Below the pieces are notes generated by a model. The model was not told where the DNA came from. It was given only the letters and a program-made list of their open reading frames with translations, and made no database searches. A stretch of DNA of 32,757 nucleotides from Bacteroidota bacterium (GTDB lineage Bacteria; Bacteroidota; Bacteroidia; AKYH767-A; JABDAW01), in the NCBI GenBank assembly GCA_013288905.1, contig JABDAW010000013.1:1-32757 (forward strand), in the 5' to 3' direction. Below, piece after piece: positions 6,049 through 32,456 of this stretch. How positions within the stretch are numbered: the stretch's first letter is position 1; the number at the start of each line of letters is the position of its first letter. The position numbers and the translations under genes were made by a program.

Positions 6049-6106
6049 GAATTTAAAATTTATTTGAGTCTTATATTCTCAATAGAAAATGAGTTTTGCC
6101 CTACTC

Positions 6107-6358
6107 TTCAAGTTCTAATCTCACATCTTCAAAGCCTTTGCGCATATCTTCAAAGGCTTCTCACGTATCTTCAAAGCCCTCGAAGATGTCTTCAAAGCCT
6201 TCACTCATGTCTTCAAAGCCTTTGAAGATGTCTTCGAAGCCTTCGCTCATGTCTTCAAAGCCCTTGATGATGTCTTCAAAGCCTTTGATGATGTCTTCAA
6301 AGCCTTTGCAGATGTCTTCAAAGCCTTTGATGATGTCTTCAAAGCCTTTGCAGATGTC
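6107..6358 (+). repeat. 21-bp minisatellite, 12 units, copy 1
   Basis: Twelve 21-bp units in strict register, each starting TTCAAAG; the last eight read TTCAAAGCC(T/C)TTGATGATG with variants. A degenerate thirteenth unit starts at 6359. Columns 1-3, 5, 6, 11, 18, 20 and 21 are invariant across units; most variation falls in columns 8-16. No variable spacers are present. Both strands stay mostly open because 21 is a multiple of three: the plus frame gives SSKPLMM heptads and the minus frame GFEDIIK heptads, but the minus frame here has no start codon and meets a stop near 6160. The 408-base gap between genes is made up of this array, a 58-base leader and the tail. Confidence 0.95.
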
Positions 6359-6498
6359 TGCAAAGGCATTTGTTAGATGGTTTTTTCCTTGTTTTAAGTG
6401 TAAAATCTCATTTAGAACCTTAAAGTAAAGGGAAACCGGCCTGTTAATAATGATTTTTGTTTGATGAAGGATTACAAATCCTTCATATCGCTTCGCCT
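6359..6498 (+). repeat. Conserved 140-bp tail of the minisatellite, copy 1
   Basis: By my count this differs at only 5 of 140 positions from 10460-10599. It ends with the inverted repeat ATGAAGGATT-aca-AATCCTTCAT (6464-6486) and then TATCGCTTCGCCT. There is no T-tract, so it does not look like a normal terminator. The palindrome plus CGCTTCG resembles REP-type intergenic elements of Bacteroidota; this is an inference from form only. Confidence 0.75.
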
Positions 6499-10149: not shown

Positions 10150-10207
10150 GAATTCAAAAGGTTTTAGGTCTTATAATTCCAAATGGATAATGAGTTTTGC
10201 TCTATTT

Positions 10208-10459
10208 TTCAAGTTCTAATCTCACATCTTCAAAGCCTTTGCGCATATCTTCAAAGGCTTCGCTCATATCTTCAAAGCCCTCGAAGATGTCTTCAAAGGC
10301 TTCGCTCATGTCTTCAAAAGGTTCGCTCATATCTTCAAAGCCCTCGAAGATGTCTTCAAAGGCTTCGCTCATGTCTTCAAAGCCCTTGATGATGTCTTCA
10401 AAGCCTTTGCAGATGTCTTCAAAGCCTTTGATGATGTCTTCAAAGCCTTTGCAGATGTC
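10208..10459 (+). repeat. 21-bp minisatellite, 12 units, copy 2
   Basis: Twelve units of 21 bp, the same number as copy 1. The first two and last few units match copy 1, but the interior uses a different order of unit types (more of the GGCTTCGCTCAT type), so the array has been reshuffled without changing length. On the minus strand a frame from GTG at 10510 to 10202 reads through the whole array as 102 residues of GFED(I/M)x(K/E) heptads with coiled-coil spacing (F at a, I/M at d). Columns 4, 10, 13 and 19 vary at third codon positions and are silent in that minus frame. Coding is possible but unproven. Confidence 0.95.
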
Positions 10460-10599
10460 TGCAAAAGCATTTGTTAGATGGTTTTTTCCTTGTTTTAAGT
10501 GTAAAATCACTTTTAGAACCTTAAAGTAAAGGGATACCTGCCTGTTAATAATGATTTTTGTTTGATGAAGGATTACAAATCCTTCATATCGCTTCGCCT
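10460..10599 (+). repeat. Conserved 140-bp tail of the minisatellite, copy 2
   Basis: Nearly identical to 6359-6498 (5 differences by my count). It contains the inverted repeat ATGAAGGATT-aca-AATCCTTCAT at 10565-10587 and ends at GCTTCGCCT, right before the aroC promoter region. With the array it fills the 484-base gap between the PKD gene and aroC. Confidence 0.75.
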
Positions 10600-10633: not shown

Positions 10634-11713
10634 ATGGCAGGAAACAGTTTCGGAGTTTTATTCAGGATTACCACTTTTGGGGAATCGCATGGCAAAATGA
10701 TAGGTGTCGTTATTGATGGCGTGCCTTCGGGGATGGCTGTTGATGAAGCCTTCATTCAAAAGGAATTAGACCGCCGCAAGCCCGGACAATCCGACATTAC
10801 TTCCCAAAGAAAAGAAGCGGACACTTTCGAGATTGTCACCGGTATTTTTGAACATAAAACCACGGGTGCGCCCTTGACCATCCTCATCTCCAATCAAAAC
10901 TACAAACCCTCGGATTATAACCATCTGAAATACACATTTCGCCCCTCTCATGCCGATTATACCTACTTTAAAAAGTACCCCCATCGTGATTATCGCGGAG
11001 GAGGAAGGGCTTCCGCAAGAGAGACTGCGGCTCGTGTCGCTGCGGGTGCCATTGCCAAGATGATTCTTATGCAGATGGACATCAAGATTATTGCTTATGT
11101 ATCCCAGGTTGGAGATATTGTTTTGAATACACCATATCAGGAACTTAACTTTAATGAAATTGAAGAAAACATAGTCCGTTGCCCTGATTCAATAATTGCT
11201 TGTTTAATGATATTAAGGATTAAGGAAGTGAAGAAAGAAGGTGATACCATAGGCGGTGTCGTTTCCTGCGTCATTCAAGGGGTTCCGGCAGGATGGGGCG
11301 AGCCTGTCTTCGATAAACTTCATGCTGATCTTGCCAAGGCAATGATGAATATCAATGCAGCCAAAGGTTTTGAATATGGCTCCGGCTTTGAGGGCGTGAA
11401 GATGAAGGGTTCCGAACACAATGACTTGTTTATTTCCAAAGACGATAAGATTAAAACTGCTACGAATAACTCTGGCGGTATTCAAGGCGGCATTTCTAAT
11501 GGGGAAGACATATATTTCCGCGTCGCATTCAAGCCTGTTGCCACCATTATGAAGCCTCAAATGAGTGTGAACGATAAGGGGGAGGCTGTGGAATTAAAAG
11601 GTAAGGGAAGGCACGACCCATGTGTGGTTCCGCGTGCTGTTCCCATAGTCGAAGCAATGGCTGCAATAGTTTTGGCAGATCATTATTTAAGGTATAAGGC
11701 AATAAAGGAATAA
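10634..11713 (+). CDS. aroC: Chorismate synthase
   Basis: 359 residues, normal for the family. The enzyme converts 5-enolpyruvylshikimate-3-phosphate to chorismate with reduced FMN, the last step of the shikimate pathway, in the cytoplasm. Family motifs are present: TFGESHG near the N-terminus, [22 protein letters not shown] at about 110-131, and [10 protein letters not shown] and [15 protein letters not shown] in the C-terminal half. The start is ATG 10634 (MAGNSFG); a longer frame from 10562 would add 24 residues translated from the palindromic repeat tail and is rejected because the same bases occur in front of an unrelated gene at 6460. A promoter-like element lies only 8 bases upstream. 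The end of the gene runs into a TAAGG-rich inverted repeat. Confidence 0.97.
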
Positions 11714-11935
11714 GGTATAAAGGTATAAGAAAATAAAGGAATAGAGGTATAATTACAAAGGTTTACTAATAAATATTCGCTATTATGAATTTAAGTACGA
11801 GAATCAAGATTCATCAAATTTTTAAGAACAATTTCGTTTCTTCAATTACATTATATTCATTTGTACCAATATACCTCTATACCTCTATACCTTTATACCC
11901 TATTTCCTTATACCCTATTCCTTTATTCCCCCTTA
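11686..11935. repeat. Imperfect inverted repeat built from 7-8 bp TATACCT units
   Basis: The left arm (11686-11752) is purine-rich (GGTATAAAGGTATA at 11714-11727) and the right arm (11869-11935) is its degenerate complement (TATACCTTTATACC at 11886-11899), with about 115 bases between. It covers the whole gap between aroC and the next gene and includes the last codons of aroC. A transcript could fold into a long hairpin. No T-tract follows. Confidence 0.7.
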
Positions 11936-16050: not shown

Positions 16051-16161
16051 TAAGAGACCATTGTCGAAAGATGATGGTTCCCTTTTTTTATGAAATCAAA
16101 TTTGATAACAAAAAATCAATCAAAAGCTGGATAAAGTCCATAGTGTACCTTATTAAAACCA

Positions 16162-16413
16162 AATTGTCCATTATTACGATCAGAAGGGCTCTTGTTACTA
16201 TAGGAATGTCCATTCTTACGATCAGAAGTTCTATTCTTACGATTAGAAGGGCACTTGTTATGATAGGAAGGTCTGTTCTTATGATTAGAAGGACTCTTGT
16301 TACGCTTCGAATGTCCTTTCTTACACTTCGAATGTCCTTTCTTACGCTTAGAAAGTCTCTTGTTACGATAAGAAGGGCTTTTGTGGAGACCAGAAGAGCC
16401 TTTCTGGTGAGAA
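16162..16413 (+). repeat. 21-bp degenerate minisatellite, about 12 units
   Basis: Units begin GAA and follow a loose pattern GAAnGnCTnTTcTTACGaTt, in strict 21-bp register with no insertion or deletion over 252 bases, although no two neighbouring units are identical. It is unrelated in sequence to the arrays at 6107 and 10208 but has the same period and about the same number of units. It lies between the divergent Wzz operon and yicC. Open frames on both strands here follow from the period being a multiple of three and are not called as genes. Confidence 0.9.
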
Positions 16414-16456
16414 AAATGTCTCCGACGGTCCGATTTCAGGTGTAAATTCGCAGAAA

Positions 16457-16569
16457 CAGTGAACAGTGAATAGTGCAAAACCCGAGATACCGTTCACTAT
16501 TCACTATTCACTGTTCACTGTTCACTGTTCACTATTCACTATTCACTATTCACTATTCACTATTCACTA
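16457..16569 (+). repeat. TTCACTA heptamer array with an inverted copy (hairpin)
   Basis: Eleven head-to-tail 7-bp units (TTCACTA or TTCACTG) fill 16493-16569. Upstream, 16457-16475 is the exact reverse complement of 16502-16520, so a 19-bp stem with a 26-base loop can form. The array ends 8 bases before the yicC -7 element, so the -33 region of that promoter is made of repeat units. Confidence 0.9.
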
Positions 16570-16576
16570 TTATTCC

Positions 16577-21947: not shown

Positions 21948-22234
21948 AAGGTAGTTTCCCTTTGCTATGTAATGCTCTCGCTGGTGCTTAAGGTAGTTTC
22001 CCTTTGCTATGGATTGCTCTCGCCGATGCTTAAGGTAGTTTCCCTTTGCTATGGATTGCTCACGCCGGTGCTTATGGAAGTTTCCCTTTGCTATGGATTG
22101 CTCACGCCGATGCTTATGGAAGTTTCCCTTTGCTATGGATTGCTCACGCCGATGCTTATGGAAGTTTCCCTTTGCTATGGATTGCTCTCGCAGGTGCTTA
22201 TGGAAGTTTCCCTTTGCTATGGATTGCTCACGCC
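21948..22234 (+). repeat. 42-bp tandem array, six full units and one partial
   Basis: Units start at 21948, 21990, 22032, 22074, 22116, 22158 and 22200, each holding GTTTCCCTTTGCTATGGAT followed by TGCTC(A/T)CGCC. The first three units begin AAGGTAG and the later ones ATGGAAG, so the array grew in blocks. There are no spacers, so it is not CRISPR. Together with its flanks it fills the 545 bases between the protease and the MgtC-like gene. Open frames on both strands follow from the period of 42. Confidence 0.95.
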
Positions 22235-22252
22235 ATAGCAAAGTGAAACTAT
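22206..22252 (+). repeat. Hairpin closing the 42-bp array
   Basis: GTTTCCCTTTGCTATGG in the last unit (22206-22222) pairs with CCATAGCAAAGTGAAAC just after it (22233-22249): 17 bases with one mismatch and a 10-base loop. The array thus ends in an inverted copy of its own unit. Confidence 0.75.
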
Positions 22253-27182: not shown

Positions 27183-27449
27183 AAAAATATTAGTTGAAGT
27201 GAATCTTTGGAGTTATAGTTCATAAACTTTCATTTTTAATCTCGGTCTGAATCGTCAGAAGAAATTAGTGTAAATATTTTATTGATTCTATATTGGATAC
27301 CTAGTCCATCGAATTCCTGGCTACTTTCAGAAACTGGAATCAGTTTAGCATAGTTTTAGAAATTCTGTGTAAGGATTGGTTTGAATGGAAAATTTACCAT
27401 TTGAAAAGTTTTAAAATCGAGAAAGATTAAAGAAAATACCTAAAAATCG

Positions 27450-27731
27450 TCGCGATACCTTTCAATAGTAACACGTTACCTTTTGGAAGTATTGCCACGA
27501 TCCTGAGTTTCGTTCGAATGAAACACAAGTCTGATGCCAATGAACTGCAAGTTCAGACGATGATTTTGAAATTCCTTGCCTTGGAAACCAGTTTCGTTCG
27601 AACGAAACCAAAAGGTGACGCGTCACAATTCAAATGTAACGCGTTACTATTGAAACAATTCTTATGTTTTTAAAAAATTATTCGAACGAAAACTATTTTC
27701 ATTGGAATGAAACCAACTTTCGTTGGAACAG
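27450..27731. repeat. Array of palindromes on an exact 21-bp lattice
   Basis: Nine palindromes have centres an exact multiple of 21 apart: TCGCGA (centre 27452.5), GTAACACGTTAC (27473.5), GTTTCGTTCGAATGAAAC (27515.5), GTTTCGTTCGAACGAAAC (27599.5), GTGACGCGTCAC (27620.5), GTAACGCGTTAC (27641.5), TTCGAA (27683.5), TTTCATTGGAATGAAA (27704.5) and CGTTGGAAC (27725.5). Lattice positions 27494.5, 27536.5, 27557.5, 27578.5 and 27662.5 hold weak or no palindromes. One further inverted repeat, TGAACT-gca-AGTTCA at 27541-27555, is off the lattice. This lies in an 849-base gap with no gene; 27183-27449 otherwise shows only an AT-rich palindrome (ATGG-aaaattta-CCAT, 27385-27400). Confidence 0.85.
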
Positions 27732-27841
27732 AATTAGGGTTTAGGGGATGGTATTCTTAAGCTCCATTCTTATTCCTTATTGAATTAATCATCCTTTTAC
27801 GATACTATTTCTCTCTAGGGGAGATGCCAATTTCCCTTAGT

Positions 27842-32246: not shown

Positions 32247-32456
32247 ATCCTGATAAATGGGAAAACAAGCTTGCCGTGCCGATTTTAGATTCATGAAAAG
32301 TATGCGGCAAGCTTGTTTTACTACTTTCAGATATCTATAAATGGCAAAACAAGTTTGTTTTGTTACTTTCAGATATCTACAAATGACAAAACAAGCTTGT
32401 TTTGTTACTTGTGGAATTCAAAATAGAATGCGACAAGTTTTTGATCTTTTTATCCC
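32247..32456. repeat. 42-bp degenerate array with a palindromic core, five units
   Basis: AAGCTT or AAGTTT occurs at 32267, 32309, 32351, 32393 and 32435, exactly 42 bases apart each time. Around it the units share only part of their sequence (AAATGR about 9 bases upstream); cores range from the perfect palindrome CAAAACAAGCTTGTTTTG to a half-decayed ACAAGTTTTTG. The first two cores are exact complements of each other over 15 bases (32262-32276 and 32305-32319). No gene lies in this 611-base end region. Confidence 0.88.

Follow-up and report, generated by a model that had tools for sequence, protein, structure and literature searches.

The array at positions 27450-27731 of the window, the 32,757-nt stretch of contig JABDAW010000013.1 analysed here, reads as an aged and worn representative of a class of dispersed noncoding repeats found between genes across a genus, elements whose cores would expand, undergo conversion, and flip orientation while staying in register on a lattice of 21 bp, or two helical turns. 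We put the probability of this reading at about one half. The host is an uncultured freshwater bacterial genus with such arrays scattered between its genes, and the 21-bp lattice extends across the genome and genus rather than being peculiar to this array.

As the original prediction stated, nine palindromes lie at 27450-27731 with their centers all on one 21-bp lattice and without an indel in the window copy (Table 1). Six of the dyads have at least 6 of 9 arm pairs and count as strong, the other three being weak, and the lattice points 27494.5, 27536.5, 27557.5, 27578.5, and 27662.5 carry no palindrome in this copy. The weak dyad at 27452.5 corresponds to the unit AAAGTGTGTCGCGACACAGTT, with 9 of 10 pairs, in the homologous array on contig C166 of a congener, G001. 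Over the lattice the mean palindrome score, calculated with 9-bp arms, is 5.42; dinucleotide shuffles average 3.24 ± 0.21, not one of the 300 reached the array's score, and the highest score that the shuffles gave at any period from 15 to 31 was 4.67. In the array, 21 bp outscores all other periods in this range, and none comes close. The units hardly align, as had been noted; TRF finds only 2.1 copies, and the array is thus a lattice of dyads, not a clean tandem repeat. It contains no open frame, is predicted to fold strongly (z = −7.6 as RNA and −6.7 as DNA), and matches no Rfam family, so that membership of such a family was rejected.

Table 1. Lattice arrays of the window and the dyads of the array at 27450-27731
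Feature	Position	Strand	Sequence or remark
Degenerate 21-bp palindromic lattice array	27450..27731	.	Family homology extends from ~27442 to 27746
Weak dyad, center 27452.5	27450..27455 (core)	.	TCGCGA
Dyad, center 27473.5	27468..27479	.	GTAACACGTTAC
Dyad, center 27515.5	27507..27524	.	GTTTCGTTCGAATGAAAC
Perfect dyad, center 27599.5	27591..27608	.	GTTTCGTTCGAACGAAAC
Dyad, center 27620.5	27615..27626	.	GTGACGCGTCAC
Dyad, center 27641.5	27636..27647	.	GTAACGCGTTAC; homologues with TGTCGCGACA or GTCTGTCGCGACAGAC
Weak dyad, center 27683.5	27681..27686 (core)	.	TTCGAA
Dyad, center 27704.5	27697..27712	.	TTTCATTGGAATGAAA
Weak dyad, center 27725.5	27718..27733	.	TTTCGTTGGAACAGAA
Whole-array higher-order quasi-palindrome	27460..27655	.	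Center is lattice point 27557.5; 63% self-complementary over 197 nt
21-bp lattice array of the class	6101..6371	.	Unit about TCTTCAAAGCCTTTGCAGATG
Sister of the 6101 array	10203..10500	.	Block ~95% identical; upstream genes 75% identical
21/63-bp lattice array	16138..16415	.	Between divergent wzz-like gene and yicC
42-bp lattice array	21948..22236	.	Upstream of S8 protease gene; inverted repeats at ends
42-bp lattice array	32272..32441	.	Alternating forward/inverted 21-bp units; downstream of korB

Including the window copy, the homologous arrays number ten and occupy nine nonorthologous intergenic sites across three species: the genome of the window itself (G000; assembly of 2.6 Mb, 59% complete) and the congeners G001 and G002. 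BLAST located three copies in G000, on C121 (79% over 269 bp, gap-free), C88 (74%), and C142 (partial), as well as four in G001 and two in G002; a genome of the same family, G003, has no copy. All ten share the order of about fifteen units and the 21-bp register, apart from a few 1-bp slips, and keep register and symmetry at roughly 50-70% identity. The flanking genes differ except for the orthologous pair of G000 C142 and G002 C54, whose common neighbor gene has 71% protein identity, and divergent genes flank five of the eight copies for which both neighbors are known. The family consensus is RGTTTYGTTSSAACRAAACY, and the palindrome is extended in copy-specific ways, such as AAAGTCTGTCGCGACAGACTT in G002 C35. 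At the family ends, only a short TTGYCTTGAAGT / ACTTCAAG match is seen, in some members.

The homologues show that the arms of the palindromes change together, as had been claimed from the window copy. In nine distinct family members and fourteen units, 49% of the symmetric cells are complementary at the lattice center; the half-lattice point, where symmetry is expected for tandem palindromes, gives 39%, and the remaining offsets 20-33%. Compensated differences per sequence pair reach 0.058 against a permutation mean of 0.033 ± 0.0045, 5.7 s.d. above the null. The innermost pairs are symmetric too (0.57, 0.54, and 0.62 against expected values of 0.37, 0.34, and 0.44), at positions where a hairpin loop is free to vary, and a hairpin would thus not constrain them. 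Covarying symmetry through the dyad center fits both dimer binding and copying. Selection for dyads would account for the arms no better and no worse than template switching between the arms of quasi-palindromes combined with whole-unit exchange. Across the class, palindrome content is higher in the unit consensuses than in shuffles (p < 0.05 for 22 of 63; Fisher p = 1e-12), with clearly palindromic units in about a third of the arrays and the remainder without them; 42-bp palindrome p-values for 21-bp arrays were left out because their null ignores the 21-bp period. Compensated double changes within class arrays number 132 against 63 expected, an excess that comes partly from heterogeneity.

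Freedom from indels, the other regularity remarked on at the outset, holds for the window copy but not for its homologues with their 1-bp slips. Indel depletion at first seemed strong evidence of selection and was rejected against orthologous flanks: with the same aligner, the gap rate per mismatch is 0.010 in the family and 0.008 in the orthologous gene flanks, so the scarcity of indels is not evidence of selection (a looser global alignment gave only extra spurious gaps). At the orthologous site, the array has diverged as far as its flank (63% and 62.5%).

The search for other 21-bp lattices found them throughout the genome and genus. In sampled DNA of G000, G001, and G002, 88 of 108 TRF clusters have a period of 21, 42, or 63, with mostly unrelated sequences; off this rule are three clusters at 22 and one at 43. 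This is a less biased figure than the 439 of 441 unit steps that are exactly 21, which come from arrays preselected for lags of 21, 42, or 63. When 456 kb of the window's own genome was scanned without a preset period, 31 of 39 noncoding periodic regions fell at 21, 42, or 63 bp. Density in the three genomes is about one array per 8 kb (30 in 140 kb of G002), and the arrays probably number hundreds per genome; most are about 150-300 bp long. They are intergenic, in divergent, convergent, and codirectional gaps at near-background proportions; none was found inside a long gene, and promoter enrichment of arrays in general is not clear. Different arrays have no common motif, the commonest 5-mer occurring in 9 of 32 units of G000 and 8 of 48 of G002, and a single recognition motif was accordingly rejected. 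Class arrays also show no 10.5-bp A/T sub-period, and curvature or nucleosome-like A/T phasing was rejected on this ground. The arrays are noncoding. Two-copy 21-bp duplications outside arrays number only five, at least one of them within a degenerate lattice element, which gives little support to abundant duplications of this kind as the sign of a mutational ruler.

Beyond the genus the distribution thins out. No 21-bp array was found in G003 and nearly none overall in ten further genomes of the order and class, most of which have none. In a set of 80 named Bacteroidota loci, 21- or 42-bp arrays occur outside the genus at only three. Two of those three genomes, G061 and G062, hold more arrays, with palindromic 42-bp units, and the phenomenon is therefore patchy rather than unique to the genus. 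In other Bacteroidota MAGs, the 42-bp palindromic array L106:17353-17948 switches orientation internally and that at L101:6304-6633 has a perfect GCTTAAAGAGTTCTTTAAGC dyad; given these two, the phenomenon may have more than one origin.

Several observations bear on how the arrays arise and change. The sister arrays at 6101 and 10203 are nearly identical beside genes that are only 75% identical (Table 1), showing that blocks are copied independently of genes. Units occur in both orientations and turn over in register. Inverted-repeat flanks exceed the 99th percentile in 16 of 94 arrays, where about 1 is expected, and in G002 arrays with different units have 100-bp ends in common: a repeat of about 100 bp (ACCAAGCCCCTACCATCCCTCGCGCAGCAG...CCTGACAGGCAATCGCCCCTTCGCGATTTCCTGTCAGG) flanks different cores at L052:3440-3900, L057:10350-10560, and L183:6170-6320, and its inner half is itself palindromic. 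One orthologous gap shows gain or loss of an entire array, measuring 129 bp in G001 and, where the array is present in G002, 381 bp. Filled and empty sites were compared and no target-site duplication was seen, these sites being too diverged to read one. The G002 site matching the array at 32272..32441 holds an unrelated 21-bp array, and arrays without evident relation in sequence occupy five orthologous gene ends in both species. This co-occurrence (Fisher p = 0.055; 0.024 when only gaps of 150 bp or more are counted) hints at positional selection and is suggestive only.

Transposases of the Y1_Tnp family are linked to REPs. A search for such Y1 (REP-type) enzymes found copies in G000, G001, and G002 that are all either partial or broken, so that, unlike REP/BIME systems, the genus has no intact Y1_Tnp partner. 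Reverse transcriptases are absent from G002, with one in G001. Both enzymes were rejected as drivers, and no autonomous partner was found in these two families.

Taken together, these observations suggest a model in which array blocks would be copied between intergenic sites by gene conversion or by transposition via a putative enzyme, while units would be amplified, replaced, or flipped in 21-bp steps. Arm symmetry would come mainly from template switching between quasi-palindrome arms and from exchange of whole palindromic units, both arms being rewritten together; passages of three papers present template switching as an established route to compensated arms (PMC7202029, PMC8604942, PMC8794818). 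The 21-bp step would be set by a sequence-indifferent ruler, in the form of a DNA-protein geometry of two turns at work in either copying or binding. In favor of copying are the recently copied blocks, the in-register turnover, the units in both orientations, and the inverted-repeat ends. Against it, copying by itself does not account for the 21-bp step in arrays of unrelated sequence, a step that calls for an explanation independent of sequence. Also against it, no active mobilizing enzyme was found in the families searched and no target-site duplications were seen, the array pairs at five orthologous gene ends hint at positional selection, and the divergent genes around five of eight classifiable family copies would suit a regulatory role.

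The original prediction offered dimeric-protein sites or a copying process, and both still fit the covariation. In the first of these, a two-fold symmetric protein would bind a dyad every two turns on one face of the DNA and polymerize or bridge, as a nucleoid organizer or a promoter-region regulator, with selection keeping spacing and symmetry as sequence drifts. We consider this explanation quite possible, if rather doubtful. Symmetry persists through the dyad center, where a hairpin loop could vary; covariation exceeds all slid controls; the step equals two B-DNA turns; the consensus RGTTTYGTTSSAACRAAACY and the GTAACGCGTTAC class resemble dimer half-sites; five of the eight classifiable family copies have divergent genes on either side, and arrays recur at some common orthologous sites. 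A polymerizing nucleoid protein has also been proposed by Subirana and Messeguer (PMC8161180). However, only about a third of the arrays are clearly palindromic in unit, different arrays have neither a common motif nor a 10.5-bp A/T sub-period, arrays in general are not clearly promoter-enriched, and the orthologous array is no better kept than its flanks and not depleted in gaps. A sequence-specific operator is disfavored in particular, as the same 21-bp step recurs in about 90 arrays of mostly unrelated sequence.

The support for in-register copying is thus equal to or better than that for phased protein sites: such a variety of unrelated arrays is beyond what one protein could read, and ordinary gene flanks show indels no more often. 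We place in-register copying slightly ahead because transfer of copies from site to site, turnover of units, and inverted ends are direct observations. A broader proposal, possible but unlikely in our estimate, is that of a genus-wide system indifferent to sequence, in which hundreds of 21-bp dyad arrays between genes would be built and maintained by a symmetric protein or by copying machinery with a two-turn ruler. If true, geometry and symmetry would be inherited rather than sequence, a bacterial counterpart of satellite chromatin.

The remaining explanations fare worse. An RNA-level element, transcribed and folded into hairpins as a small RNA, mRNA stabilizer, or terminator, is improbable. 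The predicted folding is strong and a small-RNA role has been discussed for the class (PMC8161180), but such folding is expected of any palindromic array, the innermost pairs are kept where a hairpin loop would not constrain them, Rfam gives no match, and gaps of all three orientations are occupied at about background proportions. Still less probable is a remnant of protein-coding heptad repeats (21 bp being seven codons), even though periods are nearly all multiples of 3 and the arrays have slightly more open frames of the six than column-shuffled versions (2.1 versus 1.5, p = 0.0003), in which respect nothing else suggests coding. Variability has no 3-base pattern (Fisher p = 0.97), 9 of 57 arrays as well as 27450-27731 lack any open frame, periods of 22 and 43 exist, and the units are palindromic; this explanation is largely refuted. 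Chance palindromes in AT-rich DNA, favored only by the short length of each palindrome, are refuted by the 0 of 300 shuffles that reach the score and by the ten homologues in register, and their probability is negligible.

Where the class is concerned, the view that the array resembles nothing known was wrong. Constant-size bacterial tandem repeats with variable sequence have been described (20-23 nt in many groups, with a further class of 52 nt), and two helical turns were noted as the repeat size and nucleoid proteins or small RNAs proposed (PMC8161180 and earlier work cited there). Like these repeats, the genus arrays have a constant period in the 20-23-nt range, span two DNA turns, are noncoding, include many arrays of unrelated sequence per genome and several families of one size, and are patchy taxonomically; the class is a known one, and its main features are present here. 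Most class arrays have the at least four recognizable repeats used as a criterion in that work, whereas the array at 27450-27731, at 2.1 TRF copies, appears to join the class by its lattice and homology, not its copy number. Differences are the 21/42/63-bp periods, the Bacteroidota host, and the density of about one array per 8 kb. Most tandem repeats of Bacillus species contain a short characteristic sequence, though not as a strict criterion (PMC8161180), whereas the genus arrays have no such motif. The text of PMC8161180 does not contain "palindrom," "hairpin," or "transpos," whereas the genus arrays have palindromic covarying units and inverted-repeat ends, nor does it mention a degenerate family like the ten copies here with their fixed order of units. 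The dyad symmetry, the inverted ends, and the dispersal appear new; among open-licence papers we found nothing direct on Bacteroidota intergenic repeats, and an earlier description elsewhere is possible.

Other known systems share fewer features. Passages of PMC3733652 describe REPs as repeats of 20-40 bp, mostly in two tagged super-families, GTAG and CGTC. Like REP/BIME, the genus arrays have many copies of intergenic palindromic units in alternating orientations; unlike the REPs of those passages, their unit sequence varies between arrays, their spacing is strictly 21 bp, and no tag is common to them. MITE-like elements are likewise short, intergenic, and dispersed, with the inverted-repeat ends seen in a subset of the arrays, but here the core is a 21-bp lattice whose content differs between copies with the same ends, the sites compared were too diverged to show a target-site duplication, and no autonomous partner was found in the enzyme families searched. 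The satellites of Leptospira interrogans (repeats of 37, 46, and 69 nt; PMC6749651) are also noncoding tandem-repeat families transposed through a bacterial genome, without a 21-bp lattice or described palindromic arms. Unlike an operator array or parS-like site, the array has a family consensus but no conservation in excess of its flanks and no motif common to the class.

Constant-size, variable-sequence repeats have been a puzzle since their description, with nucleoid binding and small RNA put forward as hypotheses. The genus is an extreme case, with about one array per 8 kb and 21 bp nearly without exception, and it adds three clues: arms that covary through the dyad center, inverted ends on different cores, and a degenerate ten-copy family in register. 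Together these make the choice between a copying ruler and a binding ruler testable.

Repeats of other kinds were also observed. Two 22-bp arrays of G000, L037:8168-8332 and L044:16415-16579, have one unit in common (CTTGCTAAGGCAAG... and its inverse) and form a small dispersed family outside the 21-bp rule. Between aroC and a SUI1-like gene, about 227 bp of 8/15/16-bp repeats (TATACCTC type; 11689-11930) have mutually inverse sides; the two genes are 6 bp apart in G002, and the region thus looks like an inserted repeat of another kind. The 65- and 66-bp periodic regions in the scan of the own genome are a CRISPR array (L047:10315-11143, G000 C19), with a 36-nt repeat, GTTGTGGTTTGATTTCAAAGATTGATAAACGATATT, and a 65-66-bp period with spacers. 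Eleven copies of the 7-bp TTCACTA lie just upstream of yicC (16608), at 16493-16571, and L030:3578-3951 is a 53-copy GAATAGT array; such length-variable heptamer tracts could act as switches.
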